Below are positions 14,443 to 43,835 of a DNA stretch of 44,357 nucleotides, one piece after another. The position numbers and the translations under genes are program-made. Positions within the stretch are counted from its first letter, which is position 1; each line of letters starts with the position of its first letter. Source of the stretch: Lentisphaerota bacterium (GTDB lineage Bacteria > Verrucomicrobiota > Lentisphaeria > Victivallales > Victivallaceae); NCBI GenBank assembly GCA_015061615.1, contig SUWE01000019.1:1-44357 (forward strand), given 5' to 3'. The notes under the pieces were generated by a model, which was not told where the DNA came from, did no database searches, and worked only from the letters and a program-made list of their open reading frames with translations.

Positions 14443-14519
14443 TTTTTTCCTCCATTTAAGGTTTTTATGGTAAAAGGGGACGACACTGTTAAATATACTA
14501 TAAAATTTTTCAAAAAACC

Positions 14520-14548
14520 TTGAACCCGGTGCCAATAAGTTGTATATT
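14520..14548 (+). promoter_or_regulatory. Promoter of the AraC-type regulator
   Basis: TTGAAC (14520-14525) and TATATT (14543-14548) with exactly 17 bp between, 34 bp upstream of the AraC start. This is a strong sigma-70-type match by eye. The leftward pseudopilin operon must start in the same 139-bp gap, where only an A+T-rich -10-like TATAGTATATT and no clear -35 is seen, consistent with activator dependence. Confidence 0.65.
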
Positions 14549-14581
14549 AGAGCCAAAACGAAAAAACAGGGGGAATTTACT

Positions 14582-27610: not shown

Positions 27611-27612
27611 AA

Positions 27613-28932
27613 TCAGATTTTCTCCTTGTAAAGTTCGGAAATTTTGTTTTTGCCGCCGTCCGGCGGAAGTATCGAAAGATCATAGTTGCGGGGATTGGGC
27701 AGTTTCGCCGCCGGATCTATCCCCGCAAGTTCATAGATGCTCCACAGAAGATCGACCGGCGAAACGGGGCGCTCTATGGGGCGCTCACCTCTGGCATCGG
27801 ATTTGCCCAGCACTCTGCCTCCGGCGAATCCGCCGCCTGCGACAAGGGTGCTGAAACAGCGGCAGTAGTGGTTTCTTCCGCCGTTCCACGGTTCGTTGTA
27901 ATCGACTTTGGGTGTGCGTCCGAACTCACCGGTACACCAGATGAGGGTGGAGTCGAGAAGATTTCTGGCTTGCAGATCCTCAAGCAGTGCCGAAACTCCC
28001 TGATCGAACTGGGGACCGAGCTTCTGCATCGCTTCAAAATGTTTTTTGTGCGTATCCCACCCCTGCGCGTTGATGGTGATATAGGGGACTCCCGCTTCGA
28101 CCAGACGGCGCGCGGCAAGACAGCACTGACCGAAACGGTTTCTGCCGTAGCGTTCACGGGTTTCGGTGCTTTCCAGATTGAGATCGAATGCCTTGGCATC
28201 ACTGCCGCTTAAAACTGCCTGAGCATCGGACAATGCTTTTTCAAAACTCAGCATTTCCGGACAGCTGCCGACGAGCGCCGCTGAAAATGTATCCAGTTCA
28301 GCGGCAAACTTTTCTCTGGCGGCGATCTGCTCTTTGCTCACGGCGCCGGGGGAAACAAATCCGTCCACAAGGAACTGCGCCGCATTGGGATCGGAACCGG
28401 TGGCAAGCGGTTTGAAACGGTCACTCAGAAAGCCGTTTTCTGAAAATCTGCCTTTGTTGGTGGTCAATGCGATATATGGCGGCAGTTTCCCTTTGTACTC
28501 CCCGCTTTTGAGCATACCGATAACAGCGCCGATGGCAGGATAAGTTATGCCGTCGCCGGGCATTCTGCCGGTCTGCATGAGATATGTAGCCGTTTCATGA
28601 CCGTTGGTGTGGTGATTCATACTGCGGATAATGGAGTATTTATCCGCATGTTGTGCAAGTTTCGGAAGGAACTCACTTATGCGGATACCCGGAACATTGG
28701 TGGGTATATCCCCGAATCCGCCGTTGTACTCTTTTCCGGCATCGGGTTTGGGATCGAAGGTCTCAAGGTGCGACGGTCCGCCCCAAATCCACAATTCAAT
28801 GACGGAACGGGCGGCTTTGCGCCTGCCGGAAGCAATATTGGCGGCGGGCAGCAGTTTCCCTGCTGTAAGGTCAAGCGCTCCGTAAGCTCCGCAGAGCGCC
28901 ATCATCTTGATAAAATCGCGGCGGTTGATCAT
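27613..28932 (-). CDS. DUF1501 protein with Tat-type leader
   Basis: A 439-residue member of DUF1501, an alkaline-phosphatase/sulfatase-fold group common in Planctomycetes. The N-terminus MINRRDFIKMMALCG has a twin-arginine (RRDFIK) export motif. Family landmarks are IELWIWGGPSHLETFDPKP, SMNHHTNGHETATYLMQTGR, ITINAQGWDTHKKHF and WCTGEFGRTPKVD. It lies between DUF1549/DUF1553 (12 bp upstream) and PPC (2 bp downstream). The substrate of DUF1501 proteins is not established. Confidence 0.92.
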   Translation of the reverse strand: MINRRDFIKMMALCGAYGALDLTAGKLLPAANIASGRRKAARSVIELWIWGGPSHLETFDPKPDAGKEYNGGFGDIPTNVPGIRISEFLPKLAQHADKYSIIRSMNHHTNGHETATYLMQTGRMPGDGITYPAIGAVIGMLKSGEYKGKLPPYIALTTNKGRFSENGFLSDRFKPLATGSDPNAAQFLVDGFVSPGAVSKEQIAAREKFAAELDTFSAALVGSCPEMLSFEKALSDAQAVLSGSDAKAFDLNLESTETRERYGRNRFGQCCLAARRLVEAGVPYITINAQGWDTHKKHFEAMQKLGPQFDQGVSALLEDLQARNLLDSTLIWCTGEFGRTPKVDYNEPWNGGRNHYCRCFSTLVAGGGFAGGRVLGKSDARGERPIERPVSPVDLLWSIYELAGIDPAAKLPNPRNYDLSILPPDGGKNKISELYKEKI

Positions 28933-28944
28933 AGTTTCACCTCA

Positions 28945-30513
28945 TCAATGGTGGAAAATAAATTCTCTGGAGTTGAAAAGAATCCACACGGTGTCGCTCA
29001 GTGCGCGCCATTTGGAGCGTTTATCCAGCTTTTTGTAATAACGGTTGTACGCATCGAGTTCCTTTTGGGTCGGGAATCTGCCGAGAATATCCAGATAGAC
29101 CTTTTCCACCCGCTGCGGTTCTTTGCGGAAACGGCGGATGACCATGCGGCAGTAATTGTTTATTCTGCGGTAGAGTGCGGCGGAGTTCATCAGATAAAGC
29201 TCCTGGGAATCGGTGCTGGCGGTGTTGCGTTCAGAAAGCTGTCCGGAGTCGCGCGGCGGTCTGCCGAAGTTATCCAGTACCCCGGTGGAAATACTGCCGT
29301 CGGCAATGGTGACCGCCCGCGAATTGCGCGGAAGGAAAGTGAACGGTTCAGGAATCACACTGCTGTAACGGTCATAGCCGCGGGTGACACCGGCAAGGGC
29401 ATCAATAAGCACTTCGGATTCCAGACGGCGCAGGGGATAACTCCCCATTACGGCAAGCCGTTCCGCGCTCTGGTCGAGGCTTGAAGCCTGAAAAATCGCG
29501 CTGTTCATGATGATGCGGTAAAGGTGGCGCAAAGAGTAATTGCTCTTGCGGAACTCCTCATTGAGATACTCCTGAAGCTCCTTTGAAAACGGGGAATTTT
29601 CATCCGTTGAGCCGAAAAGAGTTTTCCAGAATCCAGGAAATTGCGGCAGATCATCGGCAACCGGATAGATCCCTCTGCCGAAACACCAGTGCCAGACCCG
29701 GTTGGTCATGGCGCGGACAAAATATTTTTCCCCGTCAGCAAAGAGCCACCGGGCGTAAATTTCTCTGGGGTCGGTGACGGCGGAATCGACTTTCACGGAT
29801 GAACCGTCGGGCAGAACAGCGGAAATATTTCTGCCTTCAACGGCGTTGAAAACTATCTCCTCCTTCCACTCGTAAGTGCTTTTGTAACGGATGCAGGAAA
29901 AAAGAGCGGCAAACCCGGCAAGATCATCCGCATCGAATGCCGTTTCACGCATACCGCAGGTGGTGAGCAGAACCATTTTCGCCAGTCCGGCAGGAGTGCG
30001 GTCTGCTGAAGCACGGAAAAAATTGGCATACGGAGTGCGGAAATTACTGCCGGAAACCGTCAGCATTTTTCTGAACATCCCTGCCAGCGGCTCATCTTTG
30101 AAAAGATCATCCCTTATGGTGCGGTGGTATATCTGCACCGCGTTGGGCCAGAGGTTGATGGGGAACTCTGATTTTATGCGGAGCATATCGGCAAAACGCA
30201 TCGCCTGCATGTCGGCGTATTCCGGAGATGCAAGGATTTTTTCTATCCATTTTGCCCGTTTATCGGGAGCTTTATCCTTGAGAAAGGCGCGGACTTCCGC
30301 CTCATAAGGGAGCCTTCCGGCGGCGGTCAGAGTCAACCTGCGCAGAAAAACTGCGTCGGATGCCGTTTCCGGAGGAGTTATTCCGGAGCGCTCCCAGTGG
30401 TCAAAAAGGATTTTGTTTACCGGTAAGGTTCTGTCAGCTTGAAGTTTGCTGACATAGGGAAAAGCCGCAAGATGCAACGCGGCAAAGATGGCGGCAAAGA
30501 AAAAAAGTTTCAT
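28945..30513 (-). CDS. DUF1549/DUF1553 (PSCyt2/PSD1-type) protein without cytochrome domain
   Basis: A 522-residue exported protein (signal MKLFFFAAIFAALHLAAF). DUF1549 is at residues ~30-170 (FLRRLTLTAAGRLPYEAEVRAF... WIEKILASPEYADMQAMRFADMLR) and DUF1553 at ~250-500 (RAMTNRVWHWCFGRGIYPVADDLP... LRHLYRIIMNSAIFQ). In Planctomycetes the same protein usually also has an N-terminal c-type cytochrome with CxxCH and is longer; here no CxxCH is found. ATG 30513 is chosen because GGAGGATACT lies directly upstream; a frame extends to 30678 through the promoter. First gene of a four-gene operon. Confidence 0.88.
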   Translation of the reverse strand: MKLFFFAAIFAALHLAAFPYVSKLQADRTLPVNKILFDHWERSGITPPETASDAVFLRRLTLTAAGRLPYEAEVRAFLKDKAPDKRAKWIEKILASPEYADMQAMRFADMLRIKSEFPINLWPNAVQIYHRTIRDDLFKDEPLAGMFRKMLTVSGSNFRTPYANFFRASADRTPAGLAKMVLLTTCGMRETAFDADDLAGFAALFSCIRYKSTYEWKEEIVFNAVEGRNISAVLPDGSSVKVDSAVTDPREIYARWLFADGEKYFVRAMTNRVWHWCFGRGIYPVADDLPQFPGFWKTLFGSTDENSPFSKELQEYLNEEFRKSNYSLRHLYRIIMNSAIFQASSLDQSAERLAVMGSYPLRRLESEVLIDALAGVTRGYDRYSSVIPEPFTFLPRNSRAVTIADGSISTGVLDNFGRPPRDSGQLSERNTASTDSQELYLMNSAALYRRINNYCRMVIRRFRKEPQRVEKVYLDILGRFPTQKELDAYNRYYKKLDKRSKWRALSDTVWILFNSREFIFHH

Positions 30514-30547
30514 AGTATCCTCCTCAGTGGTATACTGCACTGGAGAT

Positions 30548-30576
30548 ACTTTATCATCAAATAAGAAAGATTTCAA
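30548..30576 (-). promoter_or_regulatory. Promoter of the DUF1549-DUF1501-PPC-RidA operon
   Basis: On the minus strand, TTGAAA (30571-30576) and TAAAGT (30548-30553) are separated by 17 bp, 35 bp upstream of ATG 30513. A short dyad CAGTG-N8-CACTG lies at 30525-30542 near the expected transcription start. No other feature is seen in 30577-30703. Confidence 0.6.
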
Positions 30577-30703
30577 GCATGACAACAGATTTTTTCTGAA
30601 TATTGTGCGGCAAACAGCCAAAGCCCACTTGGCGATTCCCCCCTTTTGCACTCTGTTTTGTACGGCAGCATCGTTCACTCATTTATGCCGATGTACCGCA
30701 TGT

Positions 30704-31651: not shown

Positions 31652-31667
31652 ACTAAAACGTTATAGT
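31652..31667. promoter_or_regulatory. LacI-type operator in front of the regulator gene
   Basis: ACTAAAACGTTATAGT is a near-perfect palindrome centred on the CpG of AACGTT, the hallmark of LacI/PurR-family operators. Its left 12 bases with the preceding A (AACTAAAACGTT, 31651-31662) recur at 34056-34067, before the pseudopilin operon. The position suggests autoregulation. Confidence 0.7.
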
Positions 31668-31684: not shown

Positions 31685-32761
31685 ATGGCTCAAAGAGTAA
31701 AAATTTCCGATGTAGCCAAAGCATGCGGCGTATCCATAAGTTGTGTTTCAAATATATTGTCCGGCAGCAAACGTTATTCATTCAAAGCTGAAACTGTGGA
31801 AAAAGTCAGAGAGATGGCGAAAAAGATGAATTATACCGTCAATCCTCTGGCATCTTCATTCAGAACTCAGAAAAACAGGATCATTGTCGGGGTACTCGGC
31901 AGCGCTGACCGTCATTGCGATATGGAATTGATGGTCAAACTGAAAACTGAATTGTATAAACACGGCTACAAGCTGGTCGTCCAGATAATGACAGATATGA
32001 CGGACGAACAGCGGGTGGATTTTCTTTCAAAAATCTACCGCTGGGGCGAAGGATTGATCATTGTTTCAACCGGAATCATGCCTGAAAGTCCCTGGTATCC
32101 GGCATTGCAGAAACTGCTGCAATCAGCACCGCCGGCGGTGAATCCCAGTTTTGAAATGCCCGGTACGCAGGTCGATTACATCCGGATAACTTATTATGAG
32201 CATTGGGATCGGATCGGTGAATTTTTCCGCAGTCACGGTTGCCGCCGGGTGCTTGCCTGCGGTTTTGCCAATCCGGAAATATGCAGCCGGACTTTTGCAG
32301 AAGAAATGAAAAAAGCCGGGATGCGCGGAGATACCTTGATCATCAGCAATCATTCCGGAGTCCGTTCTTATGACTATTATACTCCGGCAAGGAAGATAGT
32401 GGAGTTTATAAAACGTGCCCCCGATGGTCTGCCGCATGGGATCTACTGCCAGTCTGACGAAACGGCTTACGCATTGACTCAGGAACTTTCCGCATACGGT
32501 ATCCGGGTGCCGCAGGATATTGTGATGCTCGGCGGCGGAGATTCAGATGTCCGTTTCAGGATGTCTCCCGGGTTGCCGGTTTTTGTACACGACACAAATA
32601 CGCAGGTGCGCTGTGCGGTGGAGGATCTGCTTGCAAGGATCAGCAACGGTGAAGTTTCCGCCGGCACCGGAAGAAAAATCATGGATTTGGAACAATCCGT
32701 CAAATATCCTGAAGTAAATGAAACTTCAGATTGTGAATTGAACTATTTTCGGGGCATTTAA
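31685..32761 (+). CDS. LacI-family transcriptional regulator
   Basis: A 358-residue repressor-type regulator. The N-terminal helix-turn-helix is VKISDVAKACGVSISCVSNI followed by the hinge segment MNYTVNPLASSFRT. The remainder is a periplasmic-binding-protein-like sensor (IIVGVLGSADRH... LPHGIYCQSDETAYALTQEL... VMLGGGDSD) with Asp/Arg residues in ligand-binding positions. AAAGGAG lies before ATG 31685. It is followed at 20 bp by a Gfo/Idh/MocA gene. Target operators are proposed at 31652 and 34057. Confidence 0.94.
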   Translation: MAQRVKISDVAKACGVSISCVSNILSGSKRYSFKAETVEKVREMAKKMNYTVNPLASSFRTQKNRIIVGVLGSADRHCDMELMVKLKTELYKHGYKLVVQIMTDMTDEQRVDFLSKIYRWGEGLIIVSTGIMPESPWYPALQKLLQSAPPAVNPSFEMPGTQVDYIRITYYEHWDRIGEFFRSHGCRRVLACGFANPEICSRTFAEEMKKAGMRGDTLIISNHSGVRSYDYYTPARKIVEFIKRAPDGLPHGIYCQSDETAYALTQELSAYGIRVPQDIVMLGGGDSDVRFRMSPGLPVFVHDTNTQVRCAVEDLLARISNGEVSAGTGRKIMDLEQSVKYPEVNETSDCELNYFRGI

Positions 32762-32781: not shown

Positions 32782-33951
32782 GTGAAAACAGTAAGATTCG
32801 GTATCATCGGCATTTCCGGACGCGGCGGAGTATATCTTGATGATAATCACCGTCCGGAAGAGGGGTTTGAAATCGTTGCCGGGGCTGATATTGATGCTGA
32901 TGCACGGGAAAAATTTCAGGAGCGTTTTCCGCATGCGGCTGTTTATTCCGATTACCGGGAGCTGCTGAATGATCCGGATGTGGATGCGGTATTTATAATC
33001 ACTCCGGATTTTCTGCACCGGGAAATGGCTGTTGCCGCATTGGATGCCGGCAAAGATGTCTGTCTGGAAAAACCGATCGCTTTGAATATGAATGACGGTA
33101 TTGATATCTGCCGTGCAGCCATGCGGAACCGCCGCAAACTTTATCTGACCCATAATATGCGTTTTTTTCCGGTTATCCGCAAAATGCATTCTCTTATCAA
33201 ATCCGGTATGATCGGAGTCCCGCAGGTATTGTGGTGCCGTCATTTTATCAATTACGGCGGCGATGCATATTTCCGTGACTGGCACTCTGAAAGGAAAAAT
33301 ACTTGCGGTCTTCTGCTCCAGAAAGGGGCTCACGACATAGATATAATCCACTACCTTATGGGTTCTTATACAACTTCGGTATCCGGTATGGGGATGCTTT
33401 CGGTCTATGACAAGTGCCGCAGACGGGCGGATGATGGAACTCCGGGCAAAGCGGTCTGGGATGAAAATAATTATCCCCCGGAAGATTGCGAAGGATTTTC
33501 CCCCTGTATTGATGTGGAAGATCACAATATGATCATGATGCAGCTTTCTTCAGGAGCGCAGGCATGTTACATGCAGTGCCATTACACCCCTGACAGTGAC
33601 CGCAATTATACGGTGATCGGTACCAGAGGCAGAATTGAAAATATCGGTGTCGGTGAAGGGGCAAAAATTCTTCTGTGGACCGACCGGATGGATAAACGCA
33701 AGGAACCCGATGCAATATTCAATGTCAAACCGATGCCGGGGACACACTCCGGAGCGGATCCGCTGATCATGAAAGATTTCCGGGAATATATCCGTGATAA
33801 CACTGCTCCTGCGGTCAATCCGGTTGCCGCATTGATTGCGGTGATGGTTGGTGAAAAGGGTCATGAATCCATGCGTGGCAGAGGTGACAGATTGGATATT
33901 CCGGAACTCCCGGAAGATATCATGGACTATTTCGGCGGGGATAAAATCTGA
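32782..33951 (+). CDS. Gfo/Idh/MocA family oxidoreductase
   Basis: A 389-residue NAD(P)-dependent dehydrogenase. The N-terminal Rossmann fold is VRFGIIGISGRGGV, followed by FIITPDFLH and CLEKPIAL. The C-terminal domain has LLLQKGAHDIDIIHYLMG. It resembles the oxidoreductase at 8184 (shared RDWHSERKNTCG-like and HDxDxxHxLxG segments). The start is GTG 32782 with AAGGAGA at 32767-32773. It follows the LacI gene by 20 bp, so both are probably transcribed together. Confidence 0.92.
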   Translation: MKTVRFGIIGISGRGGVYLDDNHRPEEGFEIVAGADIDADAREKFQERFPHAAVYSDYRELLNDPDVDAVFIITPDFLHREMAVAALDAGKDVCLEKPIALNMNDGIDICRAAMRNRRKLYLTHNMRFFPVIRKMHSLIKSGMIGVPQVLWCRHFINYGGDAYFRDWHSERKNTCGLLLQKGAHDIDIIHYLMGSYTTSVSGMGMLSVYDKCRRRADDGTPGKAVWDENNYPPEDCEGFSPCIDVEDHNMIMMQLSSGAQACYMQCHYTPDSDRNYTVIGTRGRIENIGVGEGAKILLWTDRMDKRKEPDAIFNVKPMPGTHSGADPLIMKDFREYIRDNTAPAVNPVAALIAVMVGEKGHESMRGRGDRLDIPELPEDIMDYFGGDKI

Positions 33952-34056: not shown

Positions 34057-34072
34057 ACTAAAACGTTTTAAT
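34057..34072. promoter_or_regulatory. LacI-type operator before the pseudopilin-GH123 cluster
   Basis: ACTAAAACGTTTTAAT contains a perfect 12-bp palindrome TAAAAC-GTTTTA (34059-34070). Its left part with the preceding A is identical over 12 bases to the operator in front of lacI (31651-31662). It sits 26 bp upstream of the pseudopilin start. No good -35/-10 pair could be fixed here. Confidence 0.7.
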
Positions 34073-34097: not shown

Positions 34098-34823
34098 ATG
34101 AAAAGTTTCCGTTATGACGGAGTGAAATGCCGCTTTACTCTTATTGAACTTCTCGTTGTTATAGCAATCATCGCTATATTGGCAGCGATTCTGCTCCCTG
34201 CACTGAACAGTGCCAGGGAAAGAGGGCGCTCGGCATCGTGTCTCAGCAATCTGAAGCAAATCGGAACCAGTCTGGATATGTACGGCAGTGATAATAACGG
34301 TATGCTTCCTGCACAGATGGTGGTCAACGGTACAGGCAAAGGCGGCGCTGCATTTCTTTCTCTGAAAGGTTATCTGGCAAAAGAGCTGCTTGATTGTCCG
34401 TCAACGACCTATTCCCGCGGCGGAACGACCTGGGCGGGGCCTCAATGGAACGGATTTCATCTGGAAGATTACGGTATGTCAGCTTATGGGGAAAACCAGC
34501 GCGCCCATGTGGGCGCATCGAATAACGGTACTGACAACAATCTGAAAAAACGCTCATCCTGGAGCTTATCCTATCCTTCAAAACTGATGCTTTACGGTGA
34601 TTCATACGAAGCATCACTGGATGCCGCTACCGAAGGTTCAGCAAAACAGCTTTACGATAAAACAACTTCGGTTTCGGGTTACGGCAGTGTGGCATTCCGT
34701 CATAACAAAACAGCCAATATGCTCTTTGCCGACGGTCATACCGAAAACCGCACGGAATCTTCCATCGGTGCGGCATGGATTTTTGACAAATCAGAGCGTC
34801 ACATGTTCTGGTGGTACTTGTGA
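34098..34823 (+). CDS. Type II/IV pseudopilin of the HX9DG class, heading the GH123 cluster
   Basis: A 241-residue pseudopilin. A basic N-terminus is followed by [18 protein letters not shown] and [23 protein letters not shown], nearly identical in protein to the one at 14442-13669 although the DNA differs at many third positions. The C-terminus has [12 protein letters not shown], an exact HX9DG motif. It is expected in the inner membrane after prepilin peptidase processing. GAAAGGAAAGG precedes ATG 34098. A LacI-type operator lies just upstream. Followed at 27 bp by the accessory-domain gene, it heads the cluster. Confidence 0.9.
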
Positions 34824-34850
34824 AATAAGTTTAACAGAAAGGATTTGAAA

Positions 34851-35375
34851 ATGAAAAAAATCATGATTGCATTGCTGCTGATTTCACTCAGTACCGTTTT
34901 CGGCGGAGAATTATTGTTCAACGGTCACTGGTGGAAAGTCAAAGCCGCCAAACATGCCGGCTCCTTCTGGCAGGTGGACAAAGAAAATAAAGTTATCCGT
35001 CTTGAATATCCTGTGGTAAAAGAGGGGGATTGGGATTTTTTGCGCTGCAATGTGAAAACGCAGGATTGGACGGATAAAACAACCATCTCTTTTGATGTCA
35101 AAGCAGTTTCCGATAAACCGCTTCCTTCCCGGCATCTCGGTGTCATGCTGGTCGCTTCAGGCAGCGGCAATGAGCAGGCGTATTCCCGTATCGGTGAGGT
35201 CGAACCCGGAAAAGTTCAGCGTATAACTCTGGATTTGAATAAACTTAAACCGGCTGTCCGCAAAGGTGTCAAATCAATAGCATTTTATATCTGGCACGCA
35301 GATTTCCGCAGGGCGGGATTTGAGCCGGGCAAAGATAAGGTGATCTTTGAAATCAGCAATTTTGAAGTAAAATAA
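34851..35375 (+). CDS. Exported stand-alone accessory domain, paralogue of the GH123 N-terminus
   Basis: A 174-residue protein with a signal peptide (MKKIMIALLLISLSTVFGGE). The rest is a single beta-rich domain starting NGHWWKV and ending IAFYIWHADFRRAGFEPGKD and EISNFEVK. The same domain (GHWWKV to HRDFRQEGFVPGKDKVTFEL) forms the N-terminus of the next protein. It resembles no family I can name and could bind the polymer or help secretion (inference). ATG 34851 is preferred to TTG 34845 for spacing from AAAGGA. GH123 follows at 26 bp. Confidence 0.8.
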   Translation: MKKIMIALLLISLSTVFGGELLFNGHWWKVKAAKHAGSFWQVDKENKVIRLEYPVVKEGDWDFLRCNVKTQDWTDKTTISFDVKAVSDKPLPSRHLGVMLVASGSGNEQAYSRIGEVEPGKVQRITLDLNKLKPAVRKGVKSIAFYIWHADFRRAGFEPGKDKVIFEISNFEVK

Positions 35376-35401
35376 CCTGTCACAAATTCAAAGGTATGAT
35401 C

Positions 35402-37609
35402 ATGAAAAAATTATATTATGCACTCCTTTTGTCTCTGAATTTCGTGTTGCTGACCGCCGCAGAACCGGCATGGTACGGCCATTGGTGGAAAGTTCAGGAC
35501 AAAAATTTCAAGTCATCATTTTCCGCCGATCCGGTAAAGAAAACGGTGACACTGGAGTTCCCGATCACCGAAGGTCAGTGGGATATTCTGCGGGTGAATC
35601 TCAATGGCGGGGATTGGACAGATAAGGCTGCCTTGGAGTTTGATCTTAAAATAACGACAACAAACGGCAAACTCCCCCGGCGCAATCTGGGATTCCTTGC
35701 CCACAGCAAAGGCAGGGAGACCGGAGAACCTTATATCAATGCTTATATTCTTGATAAACCGCAGAAAATCCGGGTGGATCTGTTCAAATTGAAAAAAGAG
35801 GTTCTCAAAAACATCACCGGGATCGCATTTTTCATCTGGCACCGGGATTTCCGGCAAGAGGGATTTGTTCCCGGAAAAGACAAAGTCACTTTTGAATTGA
35901 GCAACTTCAAACTGCTCTCTTTTGATCCGGTCGGTGAAAAGGTTAAACGTGAAAGCAAAATCGTGGCTTCTGCCGGCGAGGGGGTATTCTGGAGCAGCAG
36001 CGGCACCGATAAGGTCATGCCGCAGGCTTCTCTGCCTCCGCAAAAGGCAGAGGAACCGCTTTACGTCTCTCTGGCGGGAAATGAGTATGAACCTTTCCAA
36101 GTGGTTTATACTCCATCTGAAAAGTTGTCAGTCCCGCAGACTCTGACCTATGAAACCGGTGATTTGAAAGATAAATCCGGAAATATTTTCCCCAAAGAAA
36201 ATATTTCTGTCCGCCGGGTCGGTTTCGTTCCCATCAATCAGAAAAACACCGTTGAATACCGCCGGATACCCCGCTGTTTCCGGGATAAATTCAAATCTCT
36301 GCCCGGTATGTGGCCCGACGTGCTTTACAATGACTGTAAATTGACCGTCAAAAATAAAGAAAATTATCCGGCTTATTTTACCATCCACGCTCCTGCCGGA
36401 ACTGTTCCCGGAGTTTATTCTGGAAAGATAACGGCAAAACTTGACGGCAGACAAGTGGCGGAAATCCCGCTGGAAGTGGAAGTATTCTCTTTTGAACTGC
36501 CTTTGAAGCCGTCATTCAAAACTCTTGCCCAATACTCTATTGCTTATGGATTTGACGGTCATTATCCGGAAACATATCAGAATTTCAATGTGCATGAAGC
36601 ATACTACCGCAGTATGGCAAAACACCGTATTTCTCCGATGCATTTGCCCCCCAAAGGACCGCCGCGTCCCTTCGATGAAAAGAAAATAGCTCCTTACATT
36701 GCTCTGGGCAAAGAATTGAATTTCAATGCGTGGCTGAATTTTTACTGGGGTCCTCCGGTAAGAAGTGAAAAAGACCGGGCATGGGTCAAAGAGGTGCTGG
36801 ATTATCTTGAAAAGGAAAATATTCTGAAGCAGACTTATACCTATGTCTGTGAATTGGATGAGGTCGGCGATGCCAAATACAAAGATGTTATCCGCAGATT
36901 CAATGCCATTCATAAAGCTGATCCGCGTTTCAACAAAGTATTTCTCACTTTGCGCAGTTCGCCCTATTTGTGGGGAATTCTGGATGTGTGGGTCCCCACT
37001 TATTCCGGAGAAGATGAGGATGAGGATCTTCTGCAATCCATAAAGACCGTGAAAAATATCAATCCGGATGCGGAAATGTGGAATTACGGCGGACCTGCCT
37101 ACAACATTGCACAGCCGGGCTTGATCCACCGCATGATCGCCTGGTTCGACTGGAAATATCAGGTCGACGGCAGATTGTACTGGTGTTTGAATTGCTGGAG
37201 CAAATGTGACCCGTACAAAGGTGAAGCCGCCGGCAGCGTCGGCGGTAACCGGGCGGGAGAGGGAATGTTGATCTATCCGCCGCTTGAAAAAGATAAACTG
37301 GAGATTGTCGATTCCATCCGCTATGAATTGCTCCGCGAGGGGTTGGAAGATTACGAATATCTGAAAATATGGCGTGATACCTGTGATAAATTATTCAAGA
37401 CAGTAAGTTTTTCCACCAGTGAAACTGAACGTTTTGAATTGGGTAATCTGTGCAAAAGAGCGTTGGAACTGGATAAGAAAATCAATCGCAAAATGTTGAA
37501 AAGTTTCCATGATTATCCGACAGACTCCGCTTATTTGTACGAAGTCCGCAATCAACTTGCCAATCAGATAATGGAAATTCAGAAGGTCTTGAAAAGTAAA
37601 AACAAGTGA
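35402..37609 (+). CDS. Secreted GH123/DUF4091-type hydrolase with N-terminal accessory domain
   Basis: A 735-residue exported enzyme (signal MKKLYYALLLSLNFVLLTAA). Residues ~22-180 form the accessory domain shared with the preceding gene. A central beta domain (EPFQVVYTPSEK... YFTIHAPAGTVPGVYSGKI) leads into a TIM barrel of DUF4091/GH123 type, with the catalytic-type Asp-Glu pair in CELDEVGD and the family end GEGMLIYPP... IRYELLREGLEDYEYL. Characterised GH123 enzymes are beta-N-acetylgalactosaminidases acting on glycosphingolipid-type glycans; this one may differ. ATG 35402 is chosen for spacing from AAAGG at 35390-35394. Confidence 0.86.
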   Translation: MKKLYYALLLSLNFVLLTAAEPAWYGHWWKVQDKNFKSSFSADPVKKTVTLEFPITEGQWDILRVNLNGGDWTDKAALEFDLKITTTNGKLPRRNLGFLAHSKGRETGEPYINAYILDKPQKIRVDLFKLKKEVLKNITGIAFFIWHRDFRQEGFVPGKDKVTFELSNFKLLSFDPVGEKVKRESKIVASAGEGVFWSSSGTDKVMPQASLPPQKAEEPLYVSLAGNEYEPFQVVYTPSEKLSVPQTLTYETGDLKDKSGNIFPKENISVRRVGFVPINQKNTVEYRRIPRCFRDKFKSLPGMWPDVLYNDCKLTVKNKENYPAYFTIHAPAGTVPGVYSGKITAKLDGRQVAEIPLEVEVFSFELPLKPSFKTLAQYSIAYGFDGHYPETYQNFNVHEAYYRSMAKHRISPMHLPPKGPPRPFDEKKIAPYIALGKELNFNAWLNFYWGPPVRSEKDRAWVKEVLDYLEKENILKQTYTYVCELDEVGDAKYKDVIRRFNAIHKADPRFNKVFLTLRSSPYLWGILDVWVPTYSGEDEDEDLLQSIKTVKNINPDAEMWNYGGPAYNIAQPGLIHRMIAWFDWKYQVDGRLYWCLNCWSKCDPYKGEAAGSVGGNRAGEGMLIYPPLEKDKLEIVDSIRYELLREGLEDYEYLKIWRDTCDKLFKTVSFSTSETERFELGNLCKRALELDKKINRKMLKSFHDYPTDSAYLYEVRNQLANQIMEIQKVLKSKNK

Positions 37610-37633
37610 TTTTATTCTCTTTTTTGAAGTATC

Positions 37634-38344
37634 ATGGATGTGAAAATGAATGATTTTTCCGGAGTTATTGCCAGACTGAAAGATCAGCCTGAAATACGTA
37701 TCGTGCTTTTCGGAGCATCCAATACCGACCGCTATATGCCCGGAATACACTGGGGGGATGTTCTTCATCTCGGATTGCGTTACAAATACGGTAAACCGCT
37801 CTGGGTGATAAATTCCGGCAGTAACGGCAACAATACCCGCGAGGCACTGGCACGTTTTGACCGCGATGTAAAATCTTTTTCGCCGGATATCGTGATCGTT
37901 ACCTTGGGCGGCAATGATTGTGATACGCGTCCGGAAAAATTTGTGCCGCTGCAGGAGTACAGAAACAATCTGCGGGAAATCGCCGACAGGATACACTCTG
38001 TAAACGGCATCGCTGTTTTTCAGACCTATTACCGTATGGATATTGCGGCAATGGAAGCTGAAAGAGCTTCCGGTTTTCTGCGGAATATGGATATTATCCG
38101 TGAAGAAGCAGAAAACAACAACTGGCCGCTGGTGGATCAGATGAAACTTTTTGATCAGCTTGATGAAGATGAGTTCCGTTACAAATACATGCTCAATCCG
38201 ATGCATGTGAATGAAAATGGAAATATCCTTATCGGTCTGGAACTGCTCCGTCATTTGGATTGCAATATGGATAAAGTCCCTCATCAGGAAAGATTACTGC
38301 CGGTAATCAAACGCCATCAGGAACTGGTTTCGGCAATGGAGTAA
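37634..38344 (+). CDS. SGNH/GDSL-family hydrolase (probable carbohydrate esterase)
   Basis: A 236-residue hydrolase. Block I is VLFGASNTD (nucleophile Ser), block II is around VINSGSNGNNTR, block III is TLGGNDC, and block V is LNPMHVNENG. Catalytic His is present in block V, but the residue three before it, normally Asp, is Asn. The fold is that of acetyl esterases of rhamnogalacturonan and xylan type. No signal peptide, so probably cytoplasmic. It follows GH123 by 24 bp; an in-frame second ATG is at 37646. The role is likely removal of acyl groups from imported sugar (inference). Confidence 0.85.
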   Translation: MDVKMNDFSGVIARLKDQPEIRIVLFGASNTDRYMPGIHWGDVLHLGLRYKYGKPLWVINSGSNGNNTREALARFDRDVKSFSPDIVIVTLGGNDCDTRPEKFVPLQEYRNNLREIADRIHSVNGIAVFQTYYRMDIAAMEAERASGFLRNMDIIREEAENNNWPLVDQMKLFDQLDEDEFRYKYMLNPMHVNENGNILIGLELLRHLDCNMDKVPHQERLLPVIKRHQELVSAME

Positions 38345-38405
38345 TTGCAAAAGGCAATCAAAAAAACTTTTGAAATTGTCTCAAAAATCGGGAAACAAGC
38401 TGCTT

Positions 38406-41400
38406 ATGAAACTGGATTTTGTCATAAACTGGGGTTACCAGATGCTTTACAGCCGCCGTTTGTACCACCGGGTTTTCTGCTGGGATGGCTCACTTCTCTG
38501 TTCAGATGAAAAAGCGGTGATGAAACTGGAACAACTGACCTATCCGTTTGTCTGGTTCGGTATCTGTTATTCTCCGGAAAAGACTCCTGTTGACGGCAAC
38601 GCTTGGCATAATACAGTTACCCGCCGGGCGATGGGCGGGATACAGGTTTCCGTTGAATGTGCAGAAAATGCGGTATTTACGCTGAAAAATCAATATGGTG
38701 AATTTACTTTTACCGCAGCGGAAATTGCCGGTGACGGGTATCGTTTTTTTCCGGTTGGCGGCAAATATGAATTTAATGTGATAACGGTTTGCCGTTATGG
38801 TCATTACTGGTTCCGTCCTCACGATTTTCTGCCGGGAATGGTGGAGTTCCCCGCTGAAAGTATGCCGTTGCGGATAAAAGATCACCGGCGGATGATCATG
38901 GCTGAACTGCCGCCGTCGCAGTTTTTGGAACTGCCGTTGGAAATTTCTCCGGCTCCGGCAGGTTCGGAAAATCTGCTGACCGTCCATTTGCAGGGGATGC
39001 TGCTCAAGCCGGATGATACTTCGCAACTTCCGGAAGAAGAATATGCTCCGGTGAGTAAAAGAGTTGAGCGCTTTCTTTCCCGAAAGTGCCAGCGCAACTT
39101 TGTCGGTGCAAAAGCTCAAATTTCTCTGACGGCGGATGACGGAACGGTGCTGGAAAAGACCCATTATTTCCGTTTCCATGATTTTGAAGTTCAGCTGATG
39201 GAAGATATCTGGTTCACCTTTCCGGTGAAAAAAAATATCCGCCGTATCACCATTACGCAAAATTCGCAGGGATATTCTCTGTGGCTGGCAAAGATCACTG
39301 CCCGTCAGCGTCAGGTAGAACATCTGGAAATGGAATTGCCGCAATGGGCTTTGGCAAACGAAAAAGTTTTCGGCAGAATTTATGCCGTTGAACCTTGCAA
39401 TGCAACTGTTTCCGACGGAAAAACTGCTGTCGCAAAATCTCTTGTCCACGGTTGGAACGAAATTGCAGTCGTGCCGCAGAAAGCAGGGGTGAATCACCGA
39501 TTCACTGTCTGCGGTGACGGCAAAACAACTTCAGCAGTTATTCCGGCGGTCTACGCTCTATCTTCAGAAACTCCCGAAGTCATCGTCGGTTGTGACTTGA
39601 CGACCGTACCGCATGATGACAACGGCGATATGGATCAACTGCTGGAATATATTTCCCGCACCCGTCTGGGCAACACGGTGGTATTCCGCAACTTCCGCCC
39701 GTATCCGAACTCACCGGCTCCTGCGGATGAATTACTTGACCGCTGGGGAAAATATTGTGCCGCTCACCGGATATTTGTACAGAGTGTCAACTGTCATGAT
39801 TCCGGAAAACTTGCCGAAGCCGCCGGAGCATATATGCACAACGGCGGCTGGCATGAAATCGCCGGAACGGTTTATGCCGGTGATCCCGATCCGGAAAATC
39901 CTGCATGTTCCATGCCCGAAGCTATGGAGCGCTTCATCGCTTACGTCAAAAAAGATGTTGCTGAACACAAACAATCATCCTTCCGTTACGGTTACGGGGA
40001 TGCAGGCGGCGGAGCCCGCTATCTTTTTCAGGCGGGCGTGGAGTATATCCGGGCGGAAACAATGGTTCCCCACACCCAGCATCTCTGTTCGCTGGTCCGT
40101 CCGGCAAGCAGGATTTACGGCAAAGGAGACTGGGGAGTGCATATTGCTGTCCAGCACTCTGCCCAGCCGTATATTGAATCATGGCATCTGGGGCAATATT
40201 ATCTTTCGCTTTATCAGGCGTGGGCGATGGGAGCGAACAATATATACGAAGAAGACAGTCTGTTTATTGCTTTCAAGGATGAACCGCAGGCGTGGGATGA
40301 CCGTTTGACCAAAGGTAAACGGCAGATGACCAGAGATTTCATGAAGTTTGCCGCCACCCATCCGCGCAAAGGAAAATTGCGTATCAATATCGCTTCGCTG
40401 GAAGGGCGTTTTGAAGCACCTTTCAACGGTTTTATCTGCGGAGCGGAACAAGATCCGGCATACAGTGTCTGGGGGGCTTACGGCAATCCGGCTCCGGAAT
40501 GGGGGCATGGTCAGCCGGAGAAAAAACACCAGATACTGGATGTATTGATGCCCGGAGCGTCGACTCATCCTCTGCGTCAGAAGGAAGATGAACGGAGATT
40601 TTATTTTTCAGGCACTCCTTACGGGGATTTTGATCAGCTTCCGGTGGAAGCTGACGTTGCGGAATTTTGCAATTACAAATTGATTTTCAATCTCGGCTGG
40701 CACACCGCCAATGCTGAAGATCAGGCAAAAATCGAAAAATTCGTCGCTGACGGCGGAACCTATTTTGCGGGACTTCCGGAGTATTCCTGTCACACCGGCA
40801 GAAAATTCCTGCTGAATATGGAAGATCTTGATCTGCTCAACGGCGGTGATTTGAGTAACTTTGCCGGTATCAAAGTGCTGGGCAAAGGGGAAAAATATTC
40901 CGGAAAATACAGCGGAATAAGCGGAGATGAAAGCTCCAGCCGCACTTACAGTTTTTCTCCGGATGAAGATGGGGAGTGTTGTCTGGCTGATGTGGTGCTT
41001 TGCGGAGCGGAAGCAGTCGTGATTGATCAATTTTCCGGCAAACCGCTGATCGTCAAACACCGTTTCGGCAGGGGAGCGGTTTACACACTGACGGCGTGGG
41101 CTTATCCCGGACACGAGGCGTTGGGCGGATTGATGGCGGCATGGCTGCGGAAACTTTGTGATGAACATAAAGGCGGTTATTTCATCGAAGACAGCTCCCG
41201 CGAAGTTTTCTGGAACCTTCGGGAAACAGAAACATTCCGTCAGATGACCCTGCTCAATACCGATTGGACCGTCCCCGGGAATGTGAAAGAGGTCTCACTG
41301 CACACCCCGGATTTTTCCATCCCGCTGGAAGTGAAAGAAGGGGAAATCAAAATCCTCTACCTTTACAATGCAATGGTGCTGGAAACCACCGGGGATCTGC

Positions 41401-41537
41401 ATTTGGAATTTACTCCGGCAGGAAAGATCATCGCCCACGGGGAAGGATGCCCCCGGCTGGTGATCCACCGTCCCGGAGAAAAGGAAACAAAAGAGATCAG
41501 CTTCGCGGATTCAACCGCAGTAACTCTTGATTTGTAA
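38406..41537 (+). CDS. Large protein with TIM-barrel and Rossmann-like domains, family not recognised
   Basis: A 1043-residue protein without a signal peptide. I do not recognise a family. A beta-rich N-terminal ~390 residues is followed by a region with TIM-barrel character (EVIVGCDLTTVPHDD... LDRWGKYCAAHRIFVQSVN... SSFRYGYGDAGGGARYLF... SWHLGQYYLSLYQAWAMGANNIYEED). Then comes a beta-galactosidase trimerisation-like domain (YKLIFNLGWHTANAEDQAKIEKFVADGGTYF) and a C-terminal beta domain. The layout recalls GH42-like enzymes, so an unassigned glycoside hydrolase is plausible. ATG 38406 has GGGAA upstream; a TTG-started extension to 38370 lacks a ribosome site. It ends the operon. Confidence 0.75.
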   Translation: MKLDFVINWGYQMLYSRRLYHRVFCWDGSLLCSDEKAVMKLEQLTYPFVWFGICYSPEKTPVDGNAWHNTVTRRAMGGIQVSVECAENAVFTLKNQYGEFTFTAAEIAGDGYRFFPVGGKYEFNVITVCRYGHYWFRPHDFLPGMVEFPAESMPLRIKDHRRMIMAELPPSQFLELPLEISPAPAGSENLLTVHLQGMLLKPDDTSQLPEEEYAPVSKRVERFLSRKCQRNFVGAKAQISLTADDGTVLEKTHYFRFHDFEVQLMEDIWFTFPVKKNIRRITITQNSQGYSLWLAKITARQRQVEHLEMELPQWALANEKVFGRIYAVEPCNATVSDGKTAVAKSLVHGWNEIAVVPQKAGVNHRFTVCGDGKTTSAVIPAVYALSSETPEVIVGCDLTTVPHDDNGDMDQLLEYISRTRLGNTVVFRNFRPYPNSPAPADELLDRWGKYCAAHRIFVQSVNCHDSGKLAEAAGAYMHNGGWHEIAGTVYAGDPDPENPACSMPEAMERFIAYVKKDVAEHKQSSFRYGYGDAGGGARYLFQAGVEYIRAETMVPHTQHLCSLVRPASRIYGKGDWGVHIAVQHSAQPYIESWHLGQYYLSLYQAWAMGANNIYEEDSLFIAFKDEPQAWDDRLTKGKRQMTRDFMKFAATHPRKGKLRINIASLEGRFEAPFNGFICGAEQDPAYSVWGAYGNPAPEWGHGQPEKKHQILDVLMPGASTHPLRQKEDERRFYFSGTPYGDFDQLPVEADVAEFCNYKLIFNLGWHTANAEDQAKIEKFVADGGTYFAGLPEYSCHTGRKFLLNMEDLDLLNGGDLSNFAGIKVLGKGEKYSGKYSGISGDESSSRTYSFSPDEDGECCLADVVLCGAEAVVIDQFSGKPLIVKHRFGRGAVYTLTAWAYPGHEALGGLMAAWLRKLCDEHKGGYFIEDSSREVFWNLRETETFRQMTLLNTDWTVPGNVKEVSLHTPDFSIPLEVKEGEIKILYLYNAMVLETTGDLHLEFTPAGKIIAHGEGCPRLVIHRPGEKETKEISFADSTAVTLDL

Positions 41538-41542
41538 GCTCC

Positions 41543-41587
41543 AACGGGGAAAAATCCGCCGTTTTATGCGGTAAAGATTTCCCCGTT
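41543..41587. terminator. Bidirectional hairpin between convergent genes
   Basis: AACGGGGAAA (41543-41552) pairs with TTTCCCCGTT (41578-41587), with an inner CCGC/GCGG stem (41556-41571). It lies between two convergent genes and overlaps the last codons of the GH95 gene. No T-run flanks it, so termination is only likely by position. Confidence 0.45.
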
Positions 41588-43726
41588 TCCAAGCTGCAGC
41601 CGGAGTGTTTCCCCGGCTTTCATGGCTTTGGTAAATTGTCTGCTCTGCCGGATCCTGATTTTCAGTAAACTGTCGGCAGCGGCAATTACTTCCACTGACA
41701 CCTGACCGCTGCTGTCGATCCTGCCGCTCACCCGGAATCCGCCGGGAGCGAACATCCTGTCAAATGAAACACCGGTATGATGGTCACTGATTCCGTAGAA
41801 AACACGCAATTCTCCGTCGTAAACGTGCATGAATTGATCCTGAATTGCAGTAATTGCCCCCATTCCGCCATCTATCTGCATGACCTCTCCGCGGATTTGA
41901 GCGAATATGGTAAGTCCCTTGTATCTTCCGTCATGCAGAGATGCACCGCCTGCGTTGTTGAAAGCATTCTGCCATATTTTCAGGATAAGTTCTGCCATTT
42001 CCGGATTGGCACACCGGGTGTAAAGCTGTGATGCCCACGGCATACACCAGCCAACCCACTCGCCCATGCCGAGTCTGGTGAGACGTTCAATGGAGTTTTG
42101 AATTATCTCCTGCATCTCAGGAGCAAGGGGGTCAACGACCTCAAACGGATAGATCCCGGCAAGATGGGAGTGGTGACGGTGACTTTCTTCCAGAAGCAAT
42201 CCCTCCCAGAGGGCGATCTCATTGTTTTCGATGGAAAAGAGCGGCAGATTTTGCCGGATATCGATCGCACCTGCGTATGGTTCAATGCCGAGCATTTCAG
42301 CGGCACGGATAATGTTTTTCGCCAGCTGATGCACAGCGGCGAGGTGGAAACTGGAATTTTTTCCCCAGGCATCCATTCCTGCGCCCCGATATTCAGGAGA
42401 TATGGTTACCGGCAGTGAGAGTTTGCCGTTTTCATCACGTTCCATCATCACTTCAAAGACCCGCAAAACTCCCAGCATGAAATCGTAAACCTCATTCCGG
42501 AGGAAATCCAGATCACCGGAGTAGTCGCAGTAATCAAACATCATTTGTGCCACCCACGATGAGCAGCCATGATCAATGGAACCGGTCCAGAATCCCCCCA
42601 TGCAGGTTGCCCGGTCATCAACGGCATGCGGCAGCATATAACCGTTATCGATCCGGGCAAAACAGCGTGCATTCTGCCGGAGTTTATCCTTCCATGAGAG
42701 GATCATATCAAATAACAGTTTGAGATTGGCAAATTTACCGGATTTGAGTCCCGGCAGCATATACATCTGGATATTGATATTGAAGTGATAATCCCCCTGC
42801 CACGGAGGAAGCGAATCATCTTCGATCCATGCCGCCTGCAATCCCGGCACCAGTCCGGCTTGCGGATTGGTGATAATGGCATATTTGAATAAGTTATGAT
42901 AATAAACCCGTTCCAGAAGCTGATCCGGATATCGGATATGCGGAATATCCTGCCAATATCCGGTAAAGTATTCTTTTGAAGACTCCGCAATCAAATCGAA
43001 ACCGTTGACTTCGGCAGCGGTCAGTTGAGCCGGATCATTGACATTCCGTTTGAAACACAATGTGAAAGTGCCATTGTCAAATTTTCTGCCGAATAAGGCA
43101 AAGGATGGATCAGCCGGCATCTGCTGGATAAAGCCCATGGTGTTCCCGTCGGAAAACTTTTCAGGGGGGATAAAACCGTGTTCTGCCAACGAAAGGTGTT
43201 CTGCAAGTTTCCAGCGGTGCTGTTTCTGTTCAGACAGATAGTAGGAATCGAGGATTTCCAGTTTGACGGAATCATCCAGTCCGCGACAGGCGATAGCATC
43301 CTGCAAAGTGAAGTCGGCAAAAAAATCCAGAAATTTTTCTTTCCCGTCAAATTCATAAAAAACGCGGGTTTGACCGGTTGTAAGATGCTGTTCATAGCGA
43401 AGCAAAACTGCTTTTTCAGGCAGAGTTATCACCAGACGCCCGACAGGGATCAGGCTGGGGCGCAAAACTCCATCAGTTTTTTCCTGATAAAAGAAACTGC
43501 GGATTTTTTTTTCATCGGCAGCAGCCAGCGCACTGCGGATATCTTCAAAATTCTGGGCGGCAGTCCATTTCATTCCGCCGCGATGATCCCACAAATTGGT
43601 ACATCCGATGGTGACATTCAGGATGTTTCCCTCACCCCAGAGCAGTTCTCCGGTGTATCCATTGCCCAAAACGGCTCCGCATTGTTGATCCTTAAGGGGG
43701 TAATTGAATTTGACAGTGTCGATCAT
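41564..43726 (-). CDS. GH95-like alpha-L-fucosidase/galactosidase-type protein
   Basis: A 720-residue (alpha/alpha)6-barrel glycosidase. It has GAVLGNGYTGELLWGEG at the N-terminus, ISPEYRG in the middle, LEESHRHHSHLAGIYPFEVVDP (the GH95 H-R-H-x-S-H-L motif) and QIDGGMGAITAIQDQFMH near the C-terminus. GH95 enzymes hydrolyse alpha-1,2-L-fucose or alpha-L-galactose linkages. No signal peptide is evident. ATG 43726 is chosen because the frame continues to GTG 43816 only through the promoter, upstream of the expected transcription start. The gene stands alone, convergent to the GH123 cluster. Confidence 0.88.
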   Translation of the reverse strand: MIDTVKFNYPLKDQQCGAVLGNGYTGELLWGEGNILNVTIGCTNLWDHRGGMKWTAAQNFEDIRSALAAADEKKIRSFFYQEKTDGVLRPSLIPVGRLVITLPEKAVLLRYEQHLTTGQTRVFYEFDGKEKFLDFFADFTLQDAIACRGLDDSVKLEILDSYYLSEQKQHRWKLAEHLSLAEHGFIPPEKFSDGNTMGFIQQMPADPSFALFGRKFDNGTFTLCFKRNVNDPAQLTAAEVNGFDLIAESSKEYFTGYWQDIPHIRYPDQLLERVYYHNLFKYAIITNPQAGLVPGLQAAWIEDDSLPPWQGDYHFNINIQMYMLPGLKSGKFANLKLLFDMILSWKDKLRQNARCFARIDNGYMLPHAVDDRATCMGGFWTGSIDHGCSSWVAQMMFDYCDYSGDLDFLRNEVYDFMLGVLRVFEVMMERDENGKLSLPVTISPEYRGAGMDAWGKNSSFHLAAVHQLAKNIIRAAEMLGIEPYAGAIDIRQNLPLFSIENNEIALWEGLLLEESHRHHSHLAGIYPFEVVDPLAPEMQEIIQNSIERLTRLGMGEWVGWCMPWASQLYTRCANPEMAELILKIWQNAFNNAGGASLHDGRYKGLTIFAQIRGEVMQIDGGMGAITAIQDQFMHVYDGELRVFYGISDHHTGVSFDRMFAPGGFRVSGRIDSSGQVSVEVIAAADSLLKIRIRQSRQFTKAMKAGETLRLQLGNGEIFTA

Positions 43727-43760
43727 AGCAGAATTCTTCGTAATTTTAATGGTTGGCTGC

Positions 43761-43779
43761 AACGCCTGGAAACGGCGTT
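43761..43779. promoter_or_regulatory. Inverted repeat in the GH95 leader, possible operator
   Basis: AACGCC-N7-GGCGTT forms a 6-bp dyad between the GH95 promoter and its start codon, about 20-40 bp after the expected transcription start. It could bind a repressor or form a hairpin in the leader RNA. Confidence 0.4.
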
Positions 43780-43806
43780 TTGACGAATGCTGTTTGTCAG
43801 CATAAG

Positions 43807-43835
43807 AATATATCACAGGAAGTAAGATTTGTCAA
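43807..43835 (-). promoter_or_regulatory. Near-consensus promoter of the GH95 gene
   Basis: On the minus strand TTGACA (43830-43835), 17 bp, then TATATT (43807-43812). The -35 is perfect and the -10 is 5 of 6. It fixes the GH95 start at 43726 rather than 43816. Confidence 0.75.

Follow-up and report, generated by a model that had tools for sequence, protein, structure and literature searches.

A prepilin gene heads the cluster at 34098-41537

The DNA analysed here, called the window throughout, is a stretch of 44,357 nt (positions 1 to 44,357 of contig SUWE01000019.1) from a gut-type Lentisphaerota bacterium (GCA_015061615.1), whose genome is a metagenome-assembled genome (MAG) of 2.71 Mb in 109 contigs with a completeness of 84.65%. 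At 34098-41537, five open reading frames (ORFs) on the plus strand encode a prepilin, an accessory protein that is probably exported, a GH123-like protein, an SGNH/GDSL hydrolase and a protein of 1055 aa. A preliminary description of the window reported this cluster, and we recover its five genes on one strand, although the gaps, given there as about 25-60 bp, measure 20-25 nt when the longest ORFs are taken. It also presented the cluster as a "second, independent" one beside the prepilin-led locus at 13669-14556, which is real but understated, as the two loci belong to a set of about 74 in this genome. Across this set and that of a second species, prepilins with a constant N-terminus and divergent bodies mostly precede genes for exported-looking proteins, and palindromic DNA of two classes lies at or within many of their leaders.

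The gene at 34098 encodes a prepilin of the DUF1559/H-X9-DG type. PF07596 (DUF1559) scores 32.4 bits against a gathering threshold of 23.3, over residues 38-82 only, and the prepilin leader model TIGR02532, with Glu at +5, scores 22.6 bits against 16.3. PF07963 falls marginally under its cut-off (20.7 versus 21.2), and the C-terminal motif TIGR04294 reaches 18.0 bits against a cut-off of 19; the latter model has 12 matches above cut-off in the genome, and a looser H-X9-[DE][GAS] motif is found in 49 of 71 paralogues. The best NCBIfam score, 37.7 bits, is that of the GspG equivalog TIGR01710, well short of its cut-off of 88.85, which places the protein outside that family. In the AlphaFold model (mean predicted local distance difference test, pLDDT, 78), an N-terminal helix at residues 3-53 is followed by C-terminal strands, the predicted arrangement being that of a type IV pilin fold with its long N-terminal helix and beta-sheet head. 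The best Foldseek match of this model is the pilin 1ay2 (E 0.2, probability 1.00, 61 columns), with none at E<=0.001.

As the preliminary description held, the leaders of the two window prepilins are nearly identical in protein and their bodies diverge: all 34 of 34 residues from F+1, the first mature residue, are identical, and the bodies have no match at E<1e-3. Residue -1 is Arg in the 34098 prepilin and Gln in the 13669 prepilin, Gly being found in neither. Over 60 codons, 45/60 amino acids but only 117/180 nucleotides agree, and on this nucleotide figure we rule out a recent gene conversion between the two leaders.

Prepilin-first operons across the genome

A six-frame scan of sampled stretches of the window's own genome (G000) finds 74 leaders, 71 of them within called genes, and TIGR02532, which also picks up other pilins, has 84 genome-wide matches at E<=1. 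For replication, we use a second species (G001), in which 60 of 61 planned stretches, representing 71 of 72 listed leaders, yield 65 leaders by scan and 59 called prepilins. The leaders are uniform (69/76 pilin-type leaders follow one exact consensus ending in [AS]ILLPALN), and only 182 of 2485 pairs of bodies in G000 are similar at E<1e-3. Third-position identity within the leader is 0.456 in G000, versus 0.365 expected from codon usage, and 0.481 versus 0.415 in G001; the constancy of the leader is thus mainly a protein-level constraint with some excess at the DNA level.

By signal-peptide and gene-calling rules of our own making, a signal-peptide-like start is found in the first downstream gene of 50/63 prepilins in G000 and 37/51 in G001 (8 of 71 and 8 of 59 called prepilins have no downstream gene to compare), against 70/436 and 23/190 of other genes. 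The proportion is 24/42 and 12/33 for the second downstream gene, and 17/52 and 1/32 for same-strand genes upstream. Pfam families on the 57 large downstream proteins (28 and 29 in the two genomes) include DUF4838 (4 and 1), GH123-type, GH42, CBM9, CBM4_9, DUF6259 and laminin_G_3, with no family in more than 5 proteins of either set; such tallies of prepilin neighbours count families rather than genes, and the number of proteins matching nothing is not derivable from them. Two of 28 small downstream proteins themselves match DUF1559 and are possibly prepilins with degenerate leaders. Among 66 immediate upstream genes, regulator models are represented by GntR (13), the AraC helix-turn-helix (HTH; 7) and LacI (5), which supports a predicted sugar-type regulation for many prepilin-first operons. 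The modular system proposed in the preliminary description, with a pilin for each locus, is in this respect borne out by the roughly 74 prepilin genes and the exported-looking gene that comes next; its further element, a tie between head and enzyme, is not, as described below.

Prepilin number varies widely among relatives, for which the figures on TIGR02532, T2SSE, the class-2 query and the class-1 model all hold among the matches listed: TIGR02532 has 3-127 matches per genome within the genus and from 1 to at least 150 in other genera of the order. The prepilin peptidase PF01478 has a single match in G000 and 0-2 in each of 40 genomes. The secretion ATPase model T2SSE has 4-14 matches per genome, in moderate correlation with prepilin number (Spearman 0.44), and 7 matches in G000, 3 of them below 1e-130. 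A tandem pair of strong T2SSE ATPase genes lies at 44814-47693 of contig C7 in G000, an arrangement that recurs in many relatives. Pilin genes with divergent leaders are found on contigs C65 (L103) and C12 (L102) of G000 and probably encode the machine's own pilins; the five printed from these contigs have Lys, Arg or similar at -1, and none has Gly.

Body type does not follow enzyme type

The preliminary description expected the type of pilin body to correlate genome-wide with the enzyme set of its locus, and our comparison does not support this. Within G000, body and downstream similarity have a Spearman coefficient of 0.024 over 1953 pairs. A shared downstream gene (>=60 bits) is seen in 5 of the 9 pairs with bodies similar at >=60 bits and in about 4% of the remaining pairs, and a Mantel-type r of 0.077 (p 0.0025) becomes -0.007 (p 0.60) once the pairs with bodies of >=60 bits are removed. 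Between G000 and G001, a single pair of bodies scores 208 bits and the next 60.5, and the G001 locus of the top pair lacks a comparable downstream gene. Conversely, the bodies that accompany the 25 best downstream matches between the two genomes (465 to 137 bits) score 0-31 bits. Body and enzyme types go together only in a few recent duplicates.

A 34-bp double palindrome abuts the leader

Just before F+1, many prepilin genes carry a 34-bp unit, which we call class 1, of the form TTYAC-arm-arm'-GTRAA-arm-arm'|TTYAC, in which the last TTYAC is formed by the leader's own F-T codons. A GTRAA that matches the leader TTYAC is present within 24 nt upstream in 21/74 leaders of G000 and 25/63 of G001, as compared to 1 and 2 in a control window. 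In an alignment of 34 units (13 from G000, 21 from G001), whose rows were picked by GTRAA at -15, so that those columns are conserved by choice and the other arms are unselected, hairpin 1 has 86.1% of its cells paired (36-48% when slid) and 94 double changes versus 26.7 when shuffled, and hairpin 2, which includes the leader TTYAC, has 95.8% paired (34-52% when slid). The aligned units are related, such that shuffles overstate significance; the slid controls preserve this relatedness.

A covariance model that extends to TTYAC and includes no further leader codons has 40 matches at E<=1 in the whole of G000, where a palindrome may count on both strands. All but one of these (39/40) are no more than 160 bp away from a prepilin leader, a span of about 1% of the genome, in 22 of the 84 genes; the remaining match has an E-value of 0.46. 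At E<=0.001 the model has matches in 17 of 40 genomes (own genome counted), all of one genus; it has none in the 16 genomes from other genera, although 6 of those have at least 38 prepilins. Within the genus, the number of units rises with that of prepilins (Spearman 0.69, 24 genomes), and in relatives, among pairs present in both the match and leader lists, the 11 class-1 matches that can be paired with a listed leader have start coordinates 30-58 nt away from it. Perfect doubled units precede three leaders of G001 (L173, L181, L214), and near-complete ones precede L069 and L077 in G000 and L203 in G001. Searches with Rfam in 6 sources find no family at the palindrome elements, the sole match being a tRNA. 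In the C65 pilin region, one TTTACCGTG..CACGGTAAA palindrome (L103:10399-10421) has no standard leader adjoining it.

The 34098 prepilin has a decayed unit in its leader-peptide codons, with an alignment score of 16.3 that is reached by 0 of 2000 shuffles (best 13.3); it is not among the covariance-model matches at E<=1. The leader peptide of the 13669 prepilin has no class-1 unit by the same alignment (374/2000 shuffles score as high).

A long hairpin repeat interrupts leaders in frame

A second, longer dispersed hairpin repeat, class 2, lies within 130 nt upstream of 27/65 G001 leaders. Where it occurs within a leader, it follows a first FTLIELLV and is itself followed by a second, complete leader. 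All 47 distinct leader-to-leader inserts that we collected (28 from stretches of a core search in GTDB r220, 17 from G001, 1 from G000 and 1 from another of the loci analysed) are multiples of 3 and free of stops, over 24 lengths from 84 to 360 nt, and in 42 of them an in-frame ATG precedes the first copy of the leader. Of the 24 nt compared between the first leader copy and the second, 16-23 are identical, so that a simple fresh target duplication does not account for them. The bodies behind the inserts are intact: 27 of 27 insert-bearing G001 prepilins with a known end keep 225-282 mature residues, and 23 of these have an H-X-DG-like motif.

The 23-base core of the repeat is found in 105 stretches of GTDB r220 genomes, of which 80 were analysed; all are from Lentisphaeria/Lentisphaerae MAGs, 13 by name. 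In 61 of 82 core matches a leader follows 17-18 nt later, complete in 57. The 16 genomes (of 40) with matches to a 107-nt query all belong to a single genus, and the number of matches per genome reaches at least 46. Copies away from leaders (L243, L259, L294 and L299 among them) could be terminators or elements of the repetitive extragenic palindromic (REP) type. A RAYT/IS200-like mobiliser was considered and rejected: PF01797 (Y1 transposase) has no match in the 84.65%-complete G000 and 1 in G001.

The DNA around such leaders is shared between otherwise dissimilar genes. G001 pairs picked for >=85% identity at -60..0 are 98-99% identical over -80..0, and 16 listed G001 pairs whose bodies are unrelated or barely similar (best E 2e-5, over 36 residues) have identical 5' runs of 116-214 bp. 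These identical blocks end at varied points within the leader.

Neighbouring genes in the window

The features of the two prepilin loci are collected in Table 1. In the 34098 cluster, the GH123_cat model scores 43.3 bits against a cut-off of 23.1 on the protein at 35396-37609, for which a corresponding activity is predicted. The accessory and 1055-aa proteins have no Pfam match at E<=0.01. The accessory protein is 44.6% identical over 156 residues to the N-terminal domain of the GH123-like protein and is, judged by this homology, a stand-alone copy of that domain. Its structure model, built on a two-sequence alignment (pLDDT 73), is a beta-sandwich resembling a carbohydrate-binding module (CBM); Foldseek places 1wky, a mannanase with a CBM, first (E 2.6e-06) in a list that includes several CBMs but also unrelated viral jelly-rolls. 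A match between a small protein and its larger neighbour (E<=0.01) is seen in 5 of 17 G000 loci in which a protein of <300 aa follows the prepilin and more genes come after it.

The preliminary description placed the two loci under AraC and LacI control. The AraC-like gene is divergent from the 13669 prepilin, and lacI precedes the 34098 prepilin on the same strand, with the dehydrogenase gene between them; as to control itself, the palindromes TAAAACGTTTTA and TAAAACGTTATA are compatible with regulation by LacI, and it is only their exactness and place that argue for it, since matches to TAAAACGTTTTA with up to 2 mismatches number 4 versus 2.2 expected, a figure reached by 15 of 100 shuffles.

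Table 1. Features of the two prepilin loci in the window
Position	Strand	Feature	Basis or remark
10907-13672	-	Large protein with signal-peptide-like start	Directly after the 13669 prepilin
13669-14556	-	Second window prepilin, likely ATG at 14442	Leader peptide without palindrome unit
14540-15457	+	AraC-like regulator, divergent from the 13669 prepilin	Assigned by eye; HTH scan only within the pooled upstream set
31654-31665		Operator-like palindrome TAAAACGTTATA before lacI	One mismatch to 34059-34070; putative function
31685-32761	+	LacI-family regulator	Pfam LacI 9e-09, Peripla_BP_3 4.7e-15
32782-33951	+	Gfo/Idh/MocA-family dehydrogenase	Pfam 8.8e-24
34059-34070		Perfect palindrome TAAAACGTTTTA, putative LacI operator	Ends 27 nt 5' of the prepilin ATG
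34098-34823	+	Prepilin, DUF1559/H-X9-DG type, 241 aa	Pfam and NCBIfam models, AlphaFold model
34101-34133	+	Decayed 34-bp double-palindrome unit in leader-peptide codons	Alignment to the best class-1 unit
34134-34235	+	Constant mature N-terminus, 34 residues shared with the 13669 prepilin	Sequence comparison
34845-35375	+	Accessory protein, predicted exported, CBM-like beta-sandwich	Homology to N-terminal domain of the GH123-like protein; predicted structure
35396-37609	+	GH123-like protein with signal-peptide-like start	Pfam GH123_cat 3.8e-11
37634-38344	+	SGNH/GDSL hydrolase	Pfam Lipase_GDSL_2 2.3e-16
38370-41537	+	Protein of 1055 aa	No Pfam, NCBIfam or PDB sequence match
41564-43816	-	GH95-like protein, convergent on the cluster	Pfam Glyco_hydro_95_cat 3.1e-39

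That the whole 34098-41537 cluster is conserved in relatives was considered and rejected, as no such cluster is found. The 1055-aa protein has matches in 14 of 40 genomes at E<=1e-10 (own genome counted), mostly genus-wide, with 41-70% identity across 18 relative loci; only 1 of these 18, some of which are cut by contig ends, has it in a same-direction run together with a prepilin. In G001, the SGNH, Gfo and 1055-aa genes recur together and adjoin an unrelated prepilin. Across the other 39 genomes, only one match to the body of the window prepilin exceeds 41 bits, a homologue in G022 with 36% identity (91 bits) that lies near a Gfo gene, and a related-locus search with this prepilin gave 9 pattern stretches, none of them confirmed. 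Between the two prepilin loci, at 24374-30678, genes resemble by eye those of DUF1501/DUF1553-type and pre-peptidase proteins, kinds familiar from planctomycetes.

Discussion

The reading that we favour, and regard as moderately probable, is that one pilus or secretion machine is shared by prepilins with exchangeable heads, whose cleaved leader tolerates translated palindromic DNA and whose 5' ends recombine through the leader. With their common N-terminal helix, all prepilins would be cut by one prepilin peptidase and enter a shared machine of the type II secretion/type IV pilus-like kind; what is known of the family, the constant helix and the pilin-like model all suggest such assembly. Each prepilin would bear a head specific to its locus, followed in most cases by an exported and often glycan-active protein. 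The peptide before F+1 would be removed by the peptidase and be absent from the mature pilin, leaving its codons nearly free, and palindromic DNA could accumulate there, with class 1 abutting the leader and class 2 following FTLIELLV with the leader rebuilt behind it. Because the long inserts precede F+1 of a complete leader and keep the frame, they would be translated into the leader peptide and lost together with it on cleavage. As a recombination joint, the conserved leader DNA may in turn place identical 5' segments before unrelated heads, and the varied points at which these segments end fit recombination through the leader. We add, more tentatively, that the leader may be a refuge for palindromes, in which translated in-frame inserts rebuild the full leader behind them and are removed from the protein in an intein-like manner by a host enzyme, the prepilin peptidase, and in which about 70 near-identical landing sites per genome also act as joints for the exchange of promoters and 5' ends between unrelated heads and operons.

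If this is true, a cleaved signal region can harbour repetitive DNA within functional genes without burdening the mature protein. The leader would also explain how about 74 prepilins combine one N-terminus with free heads and how 5' ends are exchanged, and the idea of one pilin per locus becomes a set of operons that can be tested singly.

Several observations weigh against this account. Gly at -1 is found in only 8/74 G000 and 6/65 G001 leaders, such that cleavage by a standard prepilin peptidase is an assumption; as the five divergent pilins from C65 and C12 lack Gly there as well, the peptidase of this group would need to be tolerant. The class-1 unit is not a multiple of 3 in length, so its doubling shifts the reading frame, and 3/74 G000 leaders have no in-frame ATG upstream, which suggests that not every insert is harmless. 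For class 2, 3 of the 47 inserts run into a sequence edge and 2 meet a stop before any ATG. Were the 24 lengths independent, the chance of all inserts being in frame would be about 3.5e-12; however, once the first copy of the leader is removed, the inserts reduce to 46 distinct sequences in clusters of 44 and 2 and are not independent. Of the 82 core matches, 21 lack an intact leader within 120 nt: 5 of them are at a stretch edge, and the other 16, of which L274 is beside a mutated leader, indicate that the repeat is dispersed rather than leader-specific. In G000 itself, a single class-2 copy reaches E<=1e-5. The sources of the palindrome-bearing sequences include MAGs, and the palindromes could be regulatory.

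The last of these points is taken furthest by the view that class 1 acts as an RNA or DNA switch where the operon begins, in which GTRAA pairs with the TTYAC on either side to form two exclusive hairpins. Covariation in both helices and the placement of 39/40 matches at prepilin leaders are what such a switch would lead one to expect, but only 22/84 prepilin genes bear a unit, none is listed in the 16 genomes of other genera, some of them equally prepilin-rich, the frame-breaking doubled units resemble spreading DNA, and no Rfam family matches the elements in 6 sources; we consider a switch quite unlikely. An assembly artefact, in which repeated leaders give rise to chimeric contigs that mimic double leaders, is very improbable. 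Many G001 leaders do have a contig end no further than about 170 nt away (C63, C42, C58, C14 and C73, for example), as expected if repeated leader DNA breaks assemblies, and the named sources are MAGs; yet 47/47 distinct inserts are in frame with bodies intact, the core repeat recurs in 13 named MAGs of two series (SIG and RGIG) with differing styles of contig names, and covariation in class 1 cannot arise from assembly.

Two further alternatives concern the heads. As pseudopilins, the prepilins could help to secrete the enzyme next to them by loading it into a type II secretion machine, for which the GspG-like best score (below its cut-off), the presence of T2SSE and peptidase genes and the mostly exported-looking next gene speak; but the heads do not track enzyme type, and loading is itself a prediction, so that we find this possible but rather doubtful. 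Were each head instead matched to the enzyme or glycan of the locus in which it lies, the pair co-evolving as a cognate module, one would expect both the excess of exported genes after the prepilin and the closest duplicates, which share both parts (C67/C14, with 253 bits in the body and 1699 downstream, and C40/C52, with 208 and 1670). The general correlation is absent within G000 and between G000 and G001, and similar enzymes are accompanied by unrelated heads; fast divergence of truly cognate heads could mask a correlation, and on balance cognate modules seem unlikely to us.

For Lentisphaerae, the open-access literature that we searched yielded neither glycan loci headed by a prepilin nor inserts in leaders, and it yielded no palindromes tied to a prepilin leader, although such silence is weak evidence; the text of one paper (PMC7356697) contains no pilin terms. 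Polysaccharide utilisation loci of the SusCD type unite a sugar-type regulator, exported enzymes and binding proteins in one locus. Unlike these, the present loci have a prepilin at their head, and none of the 8 window proteins scanned matches a SusC or SusD model, a genome-wide search not having been made. In Akkermansia, mucin use is pilus-dependent, such that pilus-like genes serve glycan use in a related group; a link to the prepilin-first loci would be one of analogy.

Rickettsia palindromic elements are palindromic repeats that lie in frame within many unrelated protein genes. The class-2 inserts resemble them in being in frame (47/47), whereas class 1 breaks the frame where doubled, and the palindromes described here are found just before or just inside a prepilin leader. 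REP-type repeats are short palindromes (20-40 bp) that share a conserved tag and occur in numerous copies (PMC3733652). In contrast to these extragenic elements, class 1 is bound to leaders, and G000 has no Y1 transposase match. PARCELs (PMC2996958) are coding repeats with dyad symmetry that are shuffled within genomes and often found in membrane-targeted proteins; there they form tandem repeat domains of the product, whereas the leader inserts lie in the portion that would be removed. With the DUF1559/H-X9-DG family (PF07596, TIGR04294), our prepilins share a DUF1559 score above cut-off, a prepilin-type N-terminus and many paralogues. Expansions of this family are known, with 74 DUF1559 genes given for Rhodopirellula baltica (PMC2754498). 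What sets the present set apart from that family is that most members lead an operon with an exported protein and that their leaders host palindromic inserts.

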